The notes beneath the pieces are model-generated. The model saw nothing but the letters and a program-made list of their open reading frames with translations. It did no database searches and had not been told where the DNA came from. From Levilactobacillus zymae (lineage in GTDB: Bacteria; Bacillota; Bacilli; Lactobacillales; Lactobacillaceae), in NCBI RefSeq assembly GCF_032190635.1, contig NZ_JAVLAS010000001.1, positions 806,001 through 870,000 of the forward strand: DNA of 64,000 bases, given 5' to 3'. A program made the position numbers and the translations under genes. Shown in pieces: positions 5,283 to 50,382 of the stretch (its first letter is position 1; every line of letters starts with the position of its first letter).

Positions 5283-5299
5283 AAGACGGAGGAATGACC

Positions 5300-6219
5300 A
5301 TGCAGAATTTAGCGATTGTGGATTTAGGGTCGAATTCGGTGCGACTAGCGGTCAACGAGCTGCGAAACGACGGGACTTACCGGGAAGTTAACCGGGTTAA
5401 GGCCGATAGTCGTCTGTCCGAAGGGATGGGACCGGAAAAAATTTTACAGCCCAAGGCCATGGCCCGCACGATTACGGCGTTGCGGTCGTTTCGGCCGTAT
5501 TACGAGCACTTGCCGAACCTGATTGTTCGGGGAATTGCCACGGCGGCTGTGCGGCAAGCCTGCAACCGCGCTGATTTTCTGTCGCAGGTCAAGGCGGCCA
5601 CCAAGATTGACTTAGAGGTGCTCTCCGGCGATCAGGAAGCCTATTACGATTACCTGGGAGCGGTCAATCGTTTGAAGGTCAAAGATTGCCTGCTACTCGA
5701 TACTGGGGGAGCTAGTTGCGAGTTGGTGCACATCAAGGACGGCCGCGACGCTAACCTGATTAGTGTCCCGTTTGGGGCGGTCAATCTGTCCGAGCAGTTT
5801 CGCTTAGACGACCGGGTGACGGCCGTTGATTTGTTCTCCGCGCAGGTCTTCTTGCGCGAGCGTCTCCGGGATATCTGGTGGCTAAACGACGCTAAAACCT
5901 CCCGTTAGTGTTGCTGGGTGGGGCCAATCGCACGTTGGCCCGGATGAACCGGCAACAACAAAAAATTCTGCACGTCGAAAACATTCACGGCTACCGCTTA
6001 ACCACCGATCAGGTGATGCGGACCTTCGAGCGCCTGATTCGGGTGCCCCTCAAGGACCGCAAACGGATTTCCGGTTTGGAACCGGAACGGGCCGATATTA
6101 TTCTAGGCGGGATGTTGCCCCTGGTGACGCTCCTGCAGATGCTAGATTCCGATCGCGTGGTCTTTTCCGAGAGCGGTGTGCGTGAAGGCATCATTTCCGA
6201 GTACCTCAGTCAACGTTAG
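5300..6219 (+). pseudogene. Ppx/GppA family phosphatase, disrupted by a one-base frameshift
   Basis: The family hydrolyses polyphosphate or pppGpp with an actin-like ATPase fold. The N-terminal part (VDLGSNSVRL, then LLDTGGASCELV) reads from 5300, using GGAGG at 5288-5292, to a TAG at 5906-5908. The C-terminal part (VLLGGANRTLARM to the end) continues in another frame to 6219. One extra A in the run AAAA at 5894-5897 would join them as DAK-NLPLVLLGGANR and give a protein of about 306 residues, the normal length. This is therefore a single-base deletion or a sequencing error. The motif at the junction is not a recognisable programmed slippery site. The protein would lose its C-terminal third if the lesion is real. 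Confidence 0.88.
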
Positions 6220-41977: not shown

Positions 41978-42020
41978 CGTCAAGCAGCGAGGAAAGCCAG
42001 TTTTTTCTTAGGGACACCTA

Positions 42021-42754
<734 letters not shown>

Positions 42755-42778
42755 AAGTGCATAATTAGCCATTTAATT

Positions 42779-42886
42779 GTTTCCAGAGAGGAACGAAACG
42801 GCCGGGACCTAACTGAACTGGGCCCTTTTTGAAGCAGCCGTCGTCTAGCCTTTCTGTAAGCAATTACAGGAAGGCTAGACTTTTTC
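42779..42886 (+). promoter_or_regulatory. second PyrR attenuator, between pyrR and pyrB
   Basis: The sequence GTTTCCAGAGAGGAAC (42779-42794) keeps the core UCCNGNGAGG of the PyrR site, with flanking bases that pair with each other. A perfect terminator follows: GTCTAGCCTT with AAGGCTAGAC (42843-42880, extended by CTGTA/TACAG), then TTTTTC. It resembles the internal attenuators of the Bacillus pyr operon. Confidence 0.85.
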
Positions 42887-42917
42887 TTTGGATTAAAACG
42901 AAAGGGAGACGGTAATC

Positions 42918-43859
42918 GTGGTACCAGCAAACAACATAGTGAGTGTGGATCAATTCGATAATCAAGCCGTGATGGCGTTGTTACACCAAGCCCAGGCGTT
43001 TCAGGAAGGGGCGACCGTCCGGTTAAACCGACCGACGTTCGCGATGAACCTGTTCTTTGAGAACAGTACCCGGACGCACACCAGTTTCGAGATGGCCGAA
43101 CGGCGCTTGGGACTTCAGGTCCTGGCGTTTGACCCCAAGACCAGCTCGATGACCAAGGGCGAAAGTTTATTGGATACCTTAAAGACCATCCAAGCCATCG
43201 GGGTGGACCTGGCGGTGATGCGGCACCCGCAAAACGCCTATTACCGGCCGCTGGTTCAGGCCGGGCTGGACCTGAGCCTGATCAACGCGGGGGATGGCAG
43301 CGGTCAACACCCGTCCCAGTCGTTATTGGACATGTTGACAATTTATCAGGAGTTCGGCCACTTTACCGGGCTAAAGGTCGCCATCGTCGGCGACATCAGT
43401 CACTCCCGGGTGGCTCGCTCCAACATGGAACTGCTCACCCAACTGGGGGCCACGGTCTACTTCAGTGGGCCCAAGCGCTGGATCACCGACGACTTTACGG
43501 CGTACGGGGAATACCGGTCACTCGACGATTTGGTCGGGGAGATGGATGTTTTGATGTTCTTGCGGGTCCAACACGAACGGTTGACCCAGGACAGCAACGC
43601 CGCCTTTGATACGCAGGCCTACCACCAACGCTACGGCTTGACGCTGACCCGGGCCGCCAAGATGCCGGCGCACGCTATCATCATGCATCCGGCCCCGGTC
43701 AACCGCGGCGTCGAACTTGCCAGCGAATTGGTCGATGCGCCCCAGTCGCGCATCTTTCAACAGATGACCAACGGCGTGTACGTCCGGATGGCCATGATCG
43801 CCCAACTCTTGGCCCACCGTGGCCTACTGACCGTTAATAAATTGGAGGAATCCCGATGA
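42918..43859 (+). CDS. pyrB: aspartate carbamoyltransferase catalytic subunit
   Basis: The enzyme joins carbamoyl phosphate and aspartate, the first committed step of UMP synthesis. It has 313 residues. The carbamoyl-phosphate loop is [11 protein letters not shown] near 50-60 and the aspartate side has [10 protein letters not shown] near 130. The start is the GTG at 42918 after AAAGGGAGA. The 3' end overlaps pyrC by four bases (ATGA). No regulatory subunit gene is present, as usual in Firmicutes. Confidence 0.96.
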
Positions 43860-45133
43860 CTACCACGTTAATTCGCAACGCCCAAATTCTGCAGCACGAT
43901 CAACTCCGAGTGGCCGACGTGTTGCTTCAGGATGGCCGCATTCACGCCATCGGTTCCCAGCTGACCGGTCCGGCCGACCAGGTTATTGACGCTCACCACC
44001 ACTTCTTGAGTCCCGGGTTAGTCGACGTCCACGTGCATCTGCGCGACCCCGGGTTGACCGCTAAGGAAACCATTGAAACCGGGACTTTGGCCGCGGCGCA
44101 CGGCGGTTTTACCACCATCGGGGCGATGCCCAACGTCGACCCGGTCCCGGATACGCCAGCTAGGGTGGCCGCGATGGTGGCTCGCAACCGCGCCCGCGCG
44201 CACGTCCACGTGGCCCAGTACGCCAGCATCACCACGGGCCGGGCGGGGGACCAACTGGTCGACTTCGTCGGTGTCCGGGATGCGGGGGCCTTCGCCGTCA
44301 GTAACGACGGGTCCGGCGTCCAGACCGCCGAGACCATGTATCAGGCCATGTGTGGGGCCGCGCGGGCGGGCTTACCGTTAGCCGCGCACGTCGAGGACGA
44401 CTCGTTGACCCACCACGGCGTGATGAACGCCGGTCCGGTAGCTGATAAACTGGGCCTGCCGGGAATTCCTAACGTCGCCGAATCCGCACAGTTGGCGCGG
44501 GACTTGATGCTGGCCGAGGCCAGTGGGGTCCACTACCACGTCTGTCACGTATCGACCGCCCAAAGCGTGCGGTTGATTAGAGACGCCAAGCGCGCCGGGA
44601 TTCACGTGACCTGTGAGGTGGCGCCGCACCACCTGTTATTGACCGATGCGGACATCACCCAAGACGATCCCATGTTAAAGATGAACCCACCGTTACGTTC
44701 CCCGCGGGACCGCGCGGCGTTACTAGCGGGCTTGCTGGATGGCACCATCGACATGATTGCCACCGACCACGCGCCGCACACCGCCGAACAAAAGCAGGGG
44801 TCGATGGCTACCGCGGCCTTCGGCATCACCGGGTTAGAGACCGCTTTTGCGCTGCTATACACCCAACTGGTGCAGCCCCGAATCCTGACGCTGGGCCAGT
44901 TGGTGAAGCTGATGAGCACCCGCCCGGCTCAACTGTTTGGCCTGAACGCCGGGGAACTTAAGGTGGGCGCTCCCGCCGACCTGGCGCTGTTTGACCTGAC
45001 GCATCCCTACACGATCGACGCTCAGCAGATGGTCTCCAAGGGTCGGAATTCTCCGTTTATCGGGTGGCGCGTGGTGGGGGCCACGTGCCTGACGGTAGTT
45101 GCCGGTAACGTCGTCTATAGAAAGGAAAATTAG
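43856..45133 (+). CDS. pyrC: dihydroorotase
   Basis: The enzyme cyclises carbamoyl aspartate to dihydroorotate. It has 425 residues, the type I form. Zinc-binding motifs are [10 protein letters not shown] near 58-67 and ATDHAPHT near 302-309, with His residues in AAHVEDD and HVCHVST. The ATG at 43856 follows TGGAGGAA and overlaps the pyrB stop. carA follows the stop by one base. Confidence 0.96.
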
Positions 45134-45134
45134 T

Positions 45135-46220
45135 ATGCAGCGATACTTAGTTTTAGCGGACGGGACCGTTTATCCCGGAACCGGGTTTGGCGCGTCCGCC
45201 ACGACCATGGGCGAACTAGTCTTCAACACGGGGATGAGTGGGTACCAGGAATCCATCACCGATCAATCCTATAACGGGGAAATCTTGATGTTTACCTACC
45301 CGTTGATTGGCAACTACGGCATCAACCGGGACGATCACGAGTCGATCCATCCGACCTGTCGGGGCGTGGTGGTACACGAGGTCGCCCGCCGGCCCAGCAA
45401 CTGGCGCTGTGACGAGACGCTGGACGCCTACCTTAAGGCCAACCAGATTCCGGGAATCACCGGGATCGATACCCGCGCCGTCACTAAACATATTCGGACT
45501 AAGGGAGCCATGCGCGCGGCCATCGTCGATACGGTCACGGACGCCGTGCACCAACGGCTTCAGCGACCGCTGGATCAGTCCCACGAGGTGGCCGAGAGCT
45601 CGACGGTCAACGCTTACCCCAACCCGGCGACCGGCCTTAACGTGGTGGTGGTCGACTTCGGGCTGAAGCATTCGATCTTACGGGAGTTGGCCAAGCGTCA
45701 CTGTAACCTGACCATTCTGCCGTACAACACCACGGCCAGCGAAATCATGGCGCTCAATCCCGACGGCGTGATGCTGACCAACGGCCCCGGTGACCCCAAG
45801 GACGTGCCCGGCGCGCTACCGATGATTCGAGAGATTGAACGCCAGGTGCCGTTATTTGGGATTTGCCTGGGGCACCAACTCTTCGCCCTAGCGAACGGGG
45901 CCGATACCTTCAAGATGAAGTTCGGCCACCGCGGGTTCAACCATCCCGTCCGTGACCTGGCGACCGGGAGAATCGACTTTACCTCGCAGAACCACGGCTA
46001 CGCGGTGGCGCGCGAGTCGTTAGCCCAGACGGCGTTGACCGTGACCCATGAGGAGATTAACGATGGCACCGTCGAAGGCTTATGTCATAATCGTTACCCG
46101 GCCTTTTCCGTCCAGTATCACCCGGACGCAGCGCCGGGACCGCACGATGCGGCTCACATTTTTGATGACTTTATCGACTTGATGCACGCCCACCAGACGA
46201 CGAAAAAGGAGCGTAAGTAA
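45135..46220 (+). CDS. carA: carbamoyl-phosphate synthase small (glutaminase) subunit
   Basis: CarA releases ammonia from glutamine for carbamoyl phosphate synthesis on CarB. It has 361 residues. The class I glutaminase triad is visible: Cys in [10 protein letters not shown] near 243, and His-Glu type partners near the C-terminus (YHPDA). The start is the ATG at 45135 after AAAGGAAA. A frame beginning 36 bases earlier overlaps pyrC. The stop codon TAA overlaps the carB ATG by one base, so the two should be coupled. Here carB is broken, which leaves CarA without its partner. Confidence 0.96.
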
Positions 46221-49200
46221 TGCCAAAACGCACGGATATTTATAAAATTATGGTGATTGGGTCCGGGCCGATTATCATCGGTCAGGCCGCGGAGTTTGAT
46301 TATTCCGGCACCTAGGCGTGCCTGGCGCTGAAGGAACTGGGGTACCAGGTGGTCCTGGTCAACTCTAACCCGGCCACGATCATGACCGATAAGGAGATTG
46401 CCGACCAAGTTTACCTGGAGCCCATCACCCTCGAGTTCGTCTCGCAGATTCTGCGCAAGGAACACTCCGACGCCATTCTGCCGACGTTGGGGGGACAACA
46501 GGGCTTAAACATGGCCATGGAACTCTCGAAGTCGGGTATCCTCGATGAATTGAAAATTGAGTTGCTGGGGACCAAACTCAGCGCTATCGACCAGGCCGAG
46601 GACCGTGAACAGTTCAAGGAACTGATGGAAAAGTTGGGCGAACCGGTCCCGGCGTCGAGTAGCGCGACCACGGTGGCCGAAGCACTGGCCTTTGCGCAAC
46701 AGGAAGGGTATCCGGTCATCGTCCGGCCGGCCTTTACCATGGGCGGTACCGGGGGTGGCATCGCCAACAATGCCGCCGAATTACGGGCGATTGCCGAAAA
46801 CGGCTTGGCCCTGTCGCCGGTCACCCAGGTGTTGATCGAGCAGAGCATCGCCGGCTACAAGGAAATCGAATTCGAAGTCATGCGCGACGCCGCGGATAAC
46901 GCGTTGGTGGTCTGTGGCATGGAAAACTTCGACCCCGTGGGGATCCACACCGGCGACTCCATCGTTTACGCTCCGATCCAAACCCTAGCGGACCGCGAAG
47001 TTCAGATGTTACGGGATGCGGCCCTACGCATCATCCGGGCGTTGAAGATCGAGGGGGGCTGTAACGTCCAGCTGGCCCTCGACCCGCAGAGCTTTCAGTA
47101 CTACGTGATCGAGGTCAACCCGCGGGTCAGTCGCTCGTCGGCCTTAGCCTCGAAGGCCACCGGGTACCCGATCGCCAAGATGGCCGCCAAGATTGCGGTG
47201 GGCCTGCACCTCGACGAGATCAAGAACCCGGTCACCGGGACCACCTACGCGCAGTTCGAACCGGCGCTGGACTACGTGGTCTGCAAGATTCCGCGCTGGC
47301 CGTTTGATAAGTTCACCCAGGCTGACCGGCGGCTAGGGACCCAGATGAAGGCGACCGGAGAGGTCATGGCGATTGGCCGAAATATCGAAGAGGCCACGTT
47401 GAAGGCCGTGCGGTCGTTGGAGATCGGCGTGCACCACTTGGCCGAGCCGGCGCTAAGCACGGTCGACCAGGCCACGCTCGAAGATAAGCTGGTCCACGCC
47501 CAAGACGACCGGTTGTTTTACCTGGCCGAAGCCCTGCGCCGCGGCTATTCACTGGACCGCCTGCACGAGCTGACGCAGATCAACGTCTTCTTCCTGGATA
47601 AACTCCTGCACATTATTGAATTGGAACACGCCCTGAGCGCTCACGTGGACGATTTAGCGGTTCTGACCACGGCGAAACGCAACGGGTTTGCCGACGCGAC
47701 GGTGGCCGACCTCTGGCACGAAACCGCTGATCAGGTCCGGAATTTCCGAGCGGCCCATCACCTGACGCCGGTCTACAAGATGGTCGACACCTGTGCCGGG
47801 GAATTTGCCTCCAGCACGCCGTACTTCTACGGCACCTACGAACAGGAAAACGAAAGCACGGTTAGCGACCGGCCGTCCGTTCTGGTCCTGGGGTCCGGTC
47901 CGATTCGCATCGGCCAGGGGGTGGAGTTCGATTACGCCACGGTCCATTCGGTCAAGGCGATCCAAAAGGCCGGCTACGAGGCCATTATCATGAACAGCAA
48001 TCCCGAGACCGTGTCGACCGACTTTTCCGTCTCCGACAAATTGTATTTTGAACCGTTGACGATTGAAGACGTCTTAAACGTGATCGACCTCGAACAACCG
48101 TTGGGGGTCATCGTCCAGTTCGGCGGGCAGACCGCCATCAACTTGGCGGCTTCGCTGGAACGTCACGGCGTCAAGATCTTGGGGACCAGTGTGGCCGACG
48201 TCAACCGGGCCGAAGACCGAGACGCCTTTAACCGGGTGATCGAAGACCTGCGGATTCCCCAACCGGCGGGCGACACGGCGAGTGACGAAGCTACGGCCCT
48301 GGCGATTGCCGACCGTATCGGCTACCCCGTGTTAGTGCGTCCCAGCTACGTGTTAGGGGGCCGAGCCATGGAAATCGTGACGCGGCGTGCCGACCTCGAC
48401 CACTACATGCATAACGCGGTTCAGGTGTCCCACGACCATCCGGTGCTGATCGACCGGTACCTGGTGGGCAAGGAATGCGAAGTGGACGCGATTTGCGACG
48501 GGGAAACGGTGTTGATTCCGGGCATCATGGAACACATCGAACGCGCCGGGGTCCACTCCGGTGACTCGATGGCGGTCTATCCACCACAGTCTCTATCAGC
48601 GGCGGTCCAGGATCAAATCGTGACCTACACGGAACGGTTAGCCAAGGCGTTGAACTGTATCGGCATGATGAACATCCAGTTCGTGGTTCACGCCGAACAG
48701 GTTTACGTGATTGAGGTCAACCCCCGAGCCAGCCGGACGGTGCCGTTTCTAAGCAAGGTCACCGCCATCTCGATGGCCCAGGTTGCGACCAGAGTGATTC
48801 TGGGACAATCGTTGCGCGACCAGGGGTACCACAACGGTCTGGTCCAGCCGGGCGCGTTGGTTCATGTGAAGGCTCCGGTCTTCTCGTTCTCCAAGCTCAA
48901 CCGGGTGGACAGCCTGTTGGGACCGGAAATGAAGTCGACCGGGGAGGTCATGGGCAGCGACCGGACGCTGGCCAAGGCCCTCTACAAGGCCTTCGAGGCG
49001 GCCAAACTCCACGTGCCGAGTCACGGTAACGTCCTGATTACCGTCCGCGATGCCGATAAACCGGAAGCCGTGAAGTTGGCCCGGCGCTTCCATAATCTGG
49101 GGTACCAACTGTTAGCGACGCCGGGGACGGCGGCCTGCCTGACGCAAAATCAGTTGCCGGTCCGGGTGGTCGATAAGATTAAGACCGGCGAACACGACCT

Positions 49201-49396
49201 CTTACAACAAATGGAGGCCGGCCAGATTCAGGTGGTGATCAACACCATCTCGGATGAGAGCCACGCGGCCGACGACGGCGCGGTCATTCGTAACACGTCG
49301 ATCGCCCACGGGGTGCCGCTGTTTACGGCACTGGATACCGTGGCGGCCATTCTGCAGGTACTGGAATCCCGGTCATTTGTGACACAGGCGCTGTAA
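46220..49396 (+). pseudogene. carB: carbamoyl-phosphate synthase large subunit with in-frame amber stop
   Basis: CarB makes carbamoyl phosphate from bicarbonate, ammonia and two ATP. The frame from the ATG at 46220 gives 1058 codons, the normal length, but codon 32 is TAG (46313-46315). The normal text is [19 protein letters not shown], and a C-to-T change in CAG gives the stop. No other lesion was seen: both ATP-grasp halves, the [16 protein letters not shown] repeat and the C-terminal MGS-like domain are intact. A restart at the GTG at 46349 would lack the first 43 residues, including part of the first nucleotide-binding fold. The lesion looks recent, or is a base-call error, or the codon is suppressed. 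Confidence 0.93.
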
Positions 49397-49464
49397 AAGC
49401 GGACCGACGAACACACGGCAACAGCCAACGATGGCACGATAAATGCATATAATAGGAGGAAACG

Positions 49465-50382
49465 ATGGGACGATTAAGTGTGAATTTAGCGGGCGTGACC
49501 CTACAAAACCCGGTGATGCCGGCTAGCGGGACCGCGGCATACGGTCAAGAACTGGCGCAAAAATTGGATTTGAACGCTTTGGGCGGCTTGGTCATCAAGT
49601 CGACCACGGCGGAACCGAAAGTGGGCAATCCGCGACCGACCACGGCGGCCACCACGGCCGGGTGGTTGAACGCCATCGGGTTGAAGAACCCCGGGGTGGC
49701 CAACGTGGTGCACGAAAAGCTGCCCTGGTTAGCGACCCATTACCCCACGTTACCCGTGGTGGGGAGTGTGGCCGGTGCGAGCTTTGAGGAATATGTGAGC
49801 GTGGCGCGCCAACTGGATGCGGTGCCCAATGTGCGGCTGCTGGAGATCAACATTTCCTGCCCAAACGTGGCGCACGGCGGGCTGGCGTTCGGGACGGACC
49901 CGCACACGGTCGAAACGTTGACTCGCGAGATTACGGCGGCGGTGACCAAGCCGGTTTTCATGAAGTTAACGCCCAACGTGACGGATATCGTCCCGATTGC
50001 CTTGGCGGCCGAAGCCGGTGGCGCTGACGGTCTGACCATGATTAACACGTTGACGGGGATGGGGATTGACTTAGCCACGCGCAAGCCCATCCTGGCTAAC
50101 GGGACCGGCGGCTTGTCGGGCAAGGCCATTCACCCGTTGGCTGTGCGGATGATTCATCAGGTTCGTCAGCACACCCGCTTACCCATCATTGGTGTGGGGG
50201 GCGTCTTTACCCCCGAAGACGTGCTGGAATTTTATCTTGCCGGCGCTAATGCGGTGGAAGTCGGGGCGGCAACCTACGGGACACCCACGGCTTGCATCGA
50301 TATCGTGCGCGACCTGCCCGCTACGCTGGATCGCTACGGCATTGCTAGTCTGCAAACGTTAATCGCACAGGTTCAGGGTTAA
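49465..50382 (+). CDS. pyrD: dihydroorotate dehydrogenase, class 1
   Basis: The enzyme oxidises dihydroorotate to orotate with FMN. It has 305 residues. The class 1 active-site base is Cys in INISCPNVAHGG near 130. Other marks are KLTPNVTDI, NTLTGMGIDL and GVGGVFTPEDVLEF. The overall text is the 1B (PyrDB) type, which normally works with the iron-sulfur flavoprotein PyrK, but no pyrK is in this window. The ATG follows AGGAGGAAA. The usual next genes pyrF and pyrE are absent; a sortase gene follows instead. Confidence 0.92.
   Translation: MGRLSVNLAGVTLQNPVMPASGTAAYGQELAQKLDLNALGGLVIKSTTAEPKVGNPRPTTAATTAGWLNAIGLKNPGVANVVHEKLPWLATHYPTLPVVGSVAGASFEEYVSVARQLDAVPNVRLLEINISCPNVAHGGLAFGTDPHTVETLTREITAAVTKPVFMKLTPNVTDIVPIALAAEAGGADGLTMINTLTGMGIDLATRKPILANGTGGLSGKAIHPLAVRMIHQVRQHTRLPIIGVGGVFTPEDVLEFYLAGANAVEVGAATYGTPTACIDIVRDLPATLDRYGIASLQTLIAQVQG

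Follow-up and report, generated by a model that had tools for sequence, protein, structure and literature searches.

Natural auxotrophs for arginine and pyrimidines, together with carbon dioxide (CO2)-dependent strains, were reportedly described by Bringel and co-workers in Lactobacillus plantarum and its relatives. A comparable strain-level lesion in the carbamoyl-phosphate and pyrimidine genes is present in Levilactobacillus zymae (assembly GCF_032190635.1; here genome G000), within a 64,000-nucleotide stretch of contig NZ_JAVLAS010000001.1 (positions 806,001 to 870,000 of the forward strand; hereafter the window). In this stretch carB (pyrAb), the gene for the large subunit of carbamoyl-phosphate synthase in a pyrimidine (pyr) operon, is interrupted by an in-frame amber codon. 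According to PMC3582564, L. plantarum possesses two functional synthases (CPS-P and CPS-A); unlike that species, G000 was found to hold one competent synthase, and its lesion is a single amber codon in Levilactobacillus. The pyr operon of Lactiplantibacillus, as represented by the frames of L. garii (pyrR-B-C-Aa-Ab-D-F-E), has the same genes in the same order as far as pyrD, whereas G000 carries pyrF and pyrE elsewhere and has carB interrupted. The arrangement in G000 is probably best explained by a young nonsense mutation that silences the sole catalytically competent large subunit found in the genome and leaves the strain dependent on uracil.

The amber codon in carB

The two features at the center of this reading are the following:

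46220..49396, + strand: pyrAb (carB), 1058 codons from ATG 46220, broken at codon 32
46313-46315, + strand: in-frame TAG, codon 32 of carB, at an invariant Gln position

The assembly does contain the amber codon. An earlier note on this DNA had described codon 32 as TAG where the family has Gln, and this is borne out by the comparison with homologues: column 32 is Gln in 120/120 sequences (the best 120 of 7990 matches), and the stop is absent from all three other full-length pyr-type copies (G034, G001 and G025) among the 35 genomes of the genus set, whose codon 32 is CAG, CAA and CAA. The sister genome G034 reads CCCAGG where the window carries the stop. The TAG interrupts carB, and the frame stays open beyond it until 49396, yielding a 1058-residue CarB with a single stop. 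Read through the TAG, this protein exceeds both family cut-offs over its whole length (NF003671, 1590 against 599; TIGR01369, 1521.8 against 1027).

Translation of carB would end after 31 residues, ahead of any complete domain, and the same note's expectation that the operon yields no carbamoyl phosphate is judged right. Without carbamoyl phosphate, PyrB (aspartate carbamoyltransferase) would lack its substrate, and pyrimidines would then have to come from uracil or nucleosides via a uracil transporter and Upp, or from orotate via PyrE and PyrF. Three points are inferred: the base exists in the living cells, neither readthrough nor restart supplies enough enzyme, and the strain requires uracil.

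The wider census of lesions places this stop in context. Of the G034 frames of at least 150 amino acids (aa), 48 have an orthologue in the window, a count that takes in antisense shadow frames. Eight of these 48 were flagged as lesioned; by their coordinates, five are antisense and one is an upstream-extended pyrB start, the remainder being carB and a split Ppx/GppA gene. The G001 frames likewise gave 4/24 flagged, namely carB and three on the minus strand. No further sense-strand in-frame stop occurs among the 48 G034 frames tested. Compared with G034, the Ppx/GppA phosphatase gene (window 5294-6219) carries a one-base frameshift near 5895 that leaves it as two frames of 204 and 103 aa.

An assembly or consensus error, in which the TAG is one wrong base and carB is intact in cells, is an unlikely alternative, and it is the one that survives best. 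Its appeal lies in the fact that one codon breaks an otherwise intact 1058-codon frame in a gene evolving under constraint on its own branch, and the Ppx/GppA frameshift, as a second lesion in the same 64 kb, would fit either slight noise in the assembly or long laboratory ageing of the strain. Against this stand the quality of the 2.89-Mb assembly (8 contigs, one of 2.65 Mb; completeness 100, contamination 0.65) and the restriction of sense-strand lesions to two among the 48 G034 frames. A methylation-driven miscall at the CCAGG of the sister likewise has no visible cause, as no cytosine-C5 methyltransferase gene was found. A Dcm-type mutational hotspot (CCAGG to CTAGG by a change at 5-methylcytosine) was considered and dropped, since a PF00145 search of the genome finds no C5 methyltransferase.

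Readthrough, restart and other escape routes

The stop may instead be real but leaky, such that near-cognate UAG readthrough or a restart at GTG 46349 or ATG 46382, the first in-frame ATG, GTG or TTG codons after it, allows slow growth without uracil; we regard this as quite improbable. The candidate restart frame is:

46349..49396, + strand: frame from GTG 46349, 1015 aa, lacking residues 1-43

The GTG starts 33 nucleotides (nt) past the stop, and an AAGGA precedes it by 13 nt, which is a long spacing, and the remainder of carB is conserved, as a leaky stop would have it. A restart would nonetheless drop 43 residues of the carboxyphosphate domain, including the presumed first strand of the pre-ATP-grasp domain; in the E. 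coli enzyme the carboxyphosphate domain covers residues 1-400, as given in PMC6245113. A functional restart at GTG 46349 appears unlikely. The amber suppressor that the earlier note had allowed for is likewise not seen: scoring of 150 of the 155 candidates gave 63 Rfam tRNA matches in the genome, all within 18 stretches in which ARAGORN called 62 tRNA genes; a CTA anticodon occurs in none of these, and the 63rd match, on contig 4, was judged by eye to have no anticodon arm.

Other routes to carbamoyl phosphate were sought across the genome. No ornithine carbamoyltransferase was found, the PF02729 profile matching pyrB alone, and no carbamate kinase was found, the best match scoring 21.5 against a cut-off of 358.25 bits. 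The arginine half of the suggestion that an arginine-type carAB might compensate is consequently moot, as no carbamoyltransferase-family gene other than pyrB was found in the genome. The synthase-type large chains found are limited to carB and a divergent relative, CarB'; a third, weak large-chain match looks like a biotin carboxylase.

The second carAB pair

The genome does contain a second carAB, which the earlier note had raised as a possibility; it is a divergent pair, here termed CarA'/CarB', located as follows:

G000:C1:1656.8-1660.5 kb: carA'-carB', after pyrR2
L126:10839-15053 (G000:C1:1656.8-1661.1 kb): pyrR2-carA'-carB', the unit also being represented by loci L087-L112, L180-L187 and L234-L257

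The pair should not rescue the strain. CarA' scores above the small-subunit cut-offs (NF009475, 411.8 against 221; TIGR01368, 339.6 against 307.35), while CarB' lies under both CarB cut-offs (TIGR01369, 545.1 against 1027; NF003671, 519.2 against 599). Similarity to E. coli CarA/CarB (1bxr, 1c30) extends over CarA 6-374 and CarB 7-641, the latter aligning as one stretch; the first half of CarB' also weakly matches the second ATP-grasp domain. Unlike the E. coli pair, CarA' lacks Cys-269 and His-353, and CarB' lacks E299, R129, N283, part of the second ATP-grasp domain and the MGS domain.

In the alignment to E. coli CarA, CarA' has Gly at Cys-269 and Phe at His-353, two residues that PMC6245113 describes as essential for glutamine hydrolysis. 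These replacements are uniform across 34/34 loci, which comprise 30 of the 35 genus genomes plus L. garii, L. pingfangensis, L. panis and P. acidilactici. A further 28-locus set was drawn from outside the genus and overlaps in four loci each with the 34 and with the CarB' loci below; here Cys is replaced by Gly in 28/28 and His by Phe, Ser, Leu or Asn in 28/28.

CarB' was compared at the catalytic and ATP-site residues of the carboxyphosphate site, a list (in E. coli numbering) in which E299 is a metal ligand. E299 is Lys or Arg in 35/35 loci (34 distinct genomes, since L002 and L180 both belong to G000) and in 28/28 loci outside the genus, and Lys in 119/119 database proteins among those listed, many of which are from the single species Apilactobacillus kunkeei. 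No sequence in the three sets retains R129 or N283. A simple all-dead view is nonetheless opposed by other positions: E215 is kept in 35/35 loci, 60/119 proteins and 23/28 loci outside the genus, Q285 in 4/35, 92/119 and 22/28, and N301 in 1/35, 59/119 and 7/28, and at the glycine loop Gly is aligned at position 175 in 2/119 proteins and 5/28 loci outside the genus. R306 is kept in 35/35 loci and 59/119 proteins.

At the domain level, G000 CarB' has 129/205 aligned positions of the second ATP-grasp domain and 15/123 of the MGS domain, and Pfam names neither of these in CarB'. The predicted structure is of moderate quality (pLDDT 75.4, pTM 0.80, 127 residues below 50) and matches E. coli CarB best (1a9x, TM 0.85 by query). 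Among the matches listed, the closest named CarB' relatives are from Levilactobacillus. Because both subunits lack residues needed for the reaction, the pair is not regarded as a backup, even though several sources label the second copy carbamoyl phosphate synthase.

The pair is nevertheless well maintained. The carB' frame is open in 35/35 genus genomes, and CarA' is 92-100% identical in the 30/35 examined. Pairwise ratios of nonsynonymous to synonymous divergence (dN/dS) between G000 and G034, G001, G025, G019, G033 and G022 are 0.004-0.02 for CarA' and 0.017-0.042 for CarB'; these values are rough, as several comparisons have a synonymous divergence (dS) above 1 and, for CarB', those with G033 and G022 gave no defined dS. 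They point to strong purifying selection on the pair in this genus. Since both genes are open and conserved with very low dN/dS, the pair presumably does something. Synthases that lack the glutaminase Cys and depend on ammonia exist (human CPS1 type), and this conservation, together with the retention of some site residues (E215, Q285, R306), is what could be said for CarA'/CarB' as a synthase of unusual chemistry, for example ammonia-dependent, that feeds PyrB; we consider this very improbable, given the loss of E299, R129 and N283 in every sequence examined, the partial second ATP-grasp domain and the persistence of carB' in 31 genus genomes without PyrB.

Age of the stop

The time of origin of the stop was approached through the codons changed on the G000 and G034 branches, with G001 as outgroup and unpolarisable codons dropped (51 in pyrR-pyrAb, 21 in pyrD and 107 in control genes). 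Nonsynonymous and synonymous changes are as follows:

pyrAb, stop included: 14/76 on the G000 branch against 5/77 on the G034 branch (Fisher p 0.054)
pyrAb, stop excluded: 13/76 on the G000 branch (p 0.084)
pyrR-pyrAb pooled: 34/150 against 21/158 (p 0.080)
pyrD: 10/51 against 12/45 (p 0.64)
control genes: 55/549 against 31/332 (p 0.82)

The stop appears young because the changes in pyrAb on its own branch (14/76) are still strongly constrained. Two of the pyrAb replacements fall at near-invariant prolines (P83, 120/120 homologues; P645, 118/120), and most are at variable sites. Over most of the branch pyrAb was under constraint, and a brief relaxation may have occurred. The idea that relaxed selection proves the lesion to be old was rejected, the branch counts being only suggestive.

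A young mutation that fully silences the synthase has several points weighing against it. The branch counts give weak signs of relaxed constraint since the mutation, and pyrD shows the opposite tendency to pyrAb. G000 is the sole genome of its species in the comparison, so that the stop is seen in one strain. Finally, low-level UAG readthrough or a restart could leave a leaky strain.

The pyr operon and the remaining pathway

The other features of the operon in the window are as follows:

42065..42165, + strand: PyrR RNA element (attenuator) upstream of pyrR; RF00515, 49.6 bits, E 1.4e-5, whole model
42212..42754, + strand: pyrR (PyrR1), open frame, 62.9% identical to the second PyrR of the genome
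42766..42885, + strand: second PyrR RNA element, between pyrR and pyrB; RF00515, 39.2 bits, E 1.3e-3, whole model
42918..43859, + strand: pyrB, aspartate carbamoyltransferase, open, the sole PF02729 gene found in the genome
43856..45133, + strand: pyrC, dihydroorotase, open, 425 aa, named by sequence and operon position
45135..46220, + strand: pyrAa (carA), glutaminase subunit, open; NF009475, 493.3 against 221
49465..50382, + strand: pyrD, dihydroorotate dehydrogenase, open; NF005574, 403.7 against 269

Both RNA elements score under the Rfam gathering threshold of 54, and a scan of the window at gathering level returned no matches. PyrAa retains the catalytic Cys and His, the latter in a VQYHPD motif, and the TAA of pyrAa overlaps the ATG of carB. 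The view that control elements and neighboring genes are intact holds for both PyrR elements and for pyrR, pyrB, pyrC, pyrAa and pyrD; it does not extend to a complete operon, as pyrF and pyrE are absent from it and form an adjacent pair at C1:464.8-466.2 kb, some 380 kb away, both open. PyrF passes its cut-off (NF001273, 247.2 against 193), whereas PyrE passes one and fails another (TIGR00336, 145.1 against 106.8; NF001729, 184.1 against 245). For uptake and salvage, upp (301.9 bits) and an ncs2 permease (428.2 bits), which we take to be of the uracil/xanthine type, each score above their own cut-off. The gap between carB and pyrD (window 49397-49464) measures 68 bp here and about 395 bp in G034:C21.

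Distribution and history of the operon

Full-length pyr-type carB occurs in 4/35 genus genomes: G000, with the stop, and G034, G001 and G025, without it. PyrB of at least 82% identity is confined to the same 4/35, other matches being at 25-29%. From these counts, de novo synthesis appears to be missing in most members of the genus, the operon being limited to a small group. A strong pyrF match (at least 173 bits) is found in 15/35 genomes; 11/35 have a strong pyrF yet nothing beyond 29% identity to PyrB, a hint that UMP may be formed from external orotate. The PyrAb of G025 is identical to a Levilactobacillus suantsaii protein at 1056/1058 residues.

In a midpoint-rooted PyrAb tree of 37 chosen rows (28 of 80 loci, 5 named proteins and 4 genus genomes), the sequences from the genus group as a clade of four (100/99) that is sister to six Lactiplantibacillus rows, the two being joined at 100/100. 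Identity to L. garii is higher for the operon proteins (PyrAb 88%, PyrAa 82%, PyrB 77%) than for CarA' (70%) and RluD (69%), while identity to G025 is lower for the operon (PyrAb 89%, PyrAa 86%, PyrB 82%) than for CarA' (97%) and RluD (92%). These patterns suggest that the operon was acquired from a Lactiplantibacillus-like donor, differential loss being the alternative; the genus relationships behind the donor reading are our assumption.

Exchange between lineages may also have occurred. Window positions 42017-49399 (pyrR-pyrAb) are 93.9% identical to G034, with flanks at 88.4% before and 81.4% after, and dS to G034 is 0.22-0.27 for pyrB, pyrAa and pyrAb against 0.61-0.87 for pyrR2, carA' and carB'. 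Given this identity and low dS, the operon segment was probably exchanged between lineages or species. Other patches are as similar or more so (for example 30.0-31.5 kb, at 98%), so mosaicism is general. G034:C21 has about 5.5 kb extra just before pyrR, between the equivalents of window 41931 and 42017; by frame reading this segment, absent from the window, holds an ABC transporter and sulfur amino acid genes.

Possible role of PyrR2-CarA'-CarB'

The order lspA-rluD-pyrR2-carA'-carB' is seen in 9/10 stretches examined, and a PyrR2 match lies inside the flank of 24/28 loci outside the genus. In L225 (Limosilactobacillus panis), carA'-carB' follows straight after rluD with no pyrR2 match between, so the pair can occur without its usual neighbor. 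Across the family sample, a short-frame CarB relative (820-901 aa) is the best match in at least 81/151 genomes and 20/40 genera, as counted by hand and with catalytic residues checked in named loci only. One stop within the match is reported for 11/81 of these short-frame rows, and 7/7 loci examined show none inside the alignment. No PyrR RNA element was detected in L126 13000-16200, the pyrR2-carA' region.

PyrR2 of L. plantarum is reported, in PMC3582564, to control the pyr operon by inorganic carbon. With respect to that protein, PyrR2 directly precedes carA'-carB' in L. garii and L. pingfangensis, as it does in G000; we infer that the published PyrR2 is the same gene and that CarA'B' is involved. 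Across much of Lactobacillaceae, species with no pyrB found included, the pair without its catalytic residues persists, for the most part beside a second PyrR. A tentative proposal is that PyrR2, CarA' and CarB' form one regulatory unit, in which the dead synthase would bind bicarbonate, glutamine, nucleotide or a subunit of the real synthase and signal its state to PyrR2. Such a unit would explain the reported response of L. plantarum PyrR2 to inorganic carbon; that the three proteins work jointly is suggested by gene order alone. No description of an inactive CarA'/CarB'-type pair was found in a literature search that covered few subscription papers, so the pair may be described already; passages of PMC7911632, PMC11265412 and PMC10609543 likewise contain nothing on such a pair.

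Implications

An event of this kind is familiar and ordinary in lactic acid bacteria. The conserved, apparently dead synthase pair beside pyrR2, possibly a sensor or regulator, is the newer part. The amber codon gives a clean prediction, namely a need for uracil although every other pyrimidine gene is open, and it illustrates the renewed loss, through one substitution, of a pathway that was probably acquired. Counting carAB copies is misleading in this genus, as a metabolic model would falsely infer prototrophy if it treated CarA'/CarB' as a synthase. Should the pair turn out to be regulatory, it would represent a conserved pseudoenzyme of lactic acid bacteria with a link to the control of pyrimidines and CO2.
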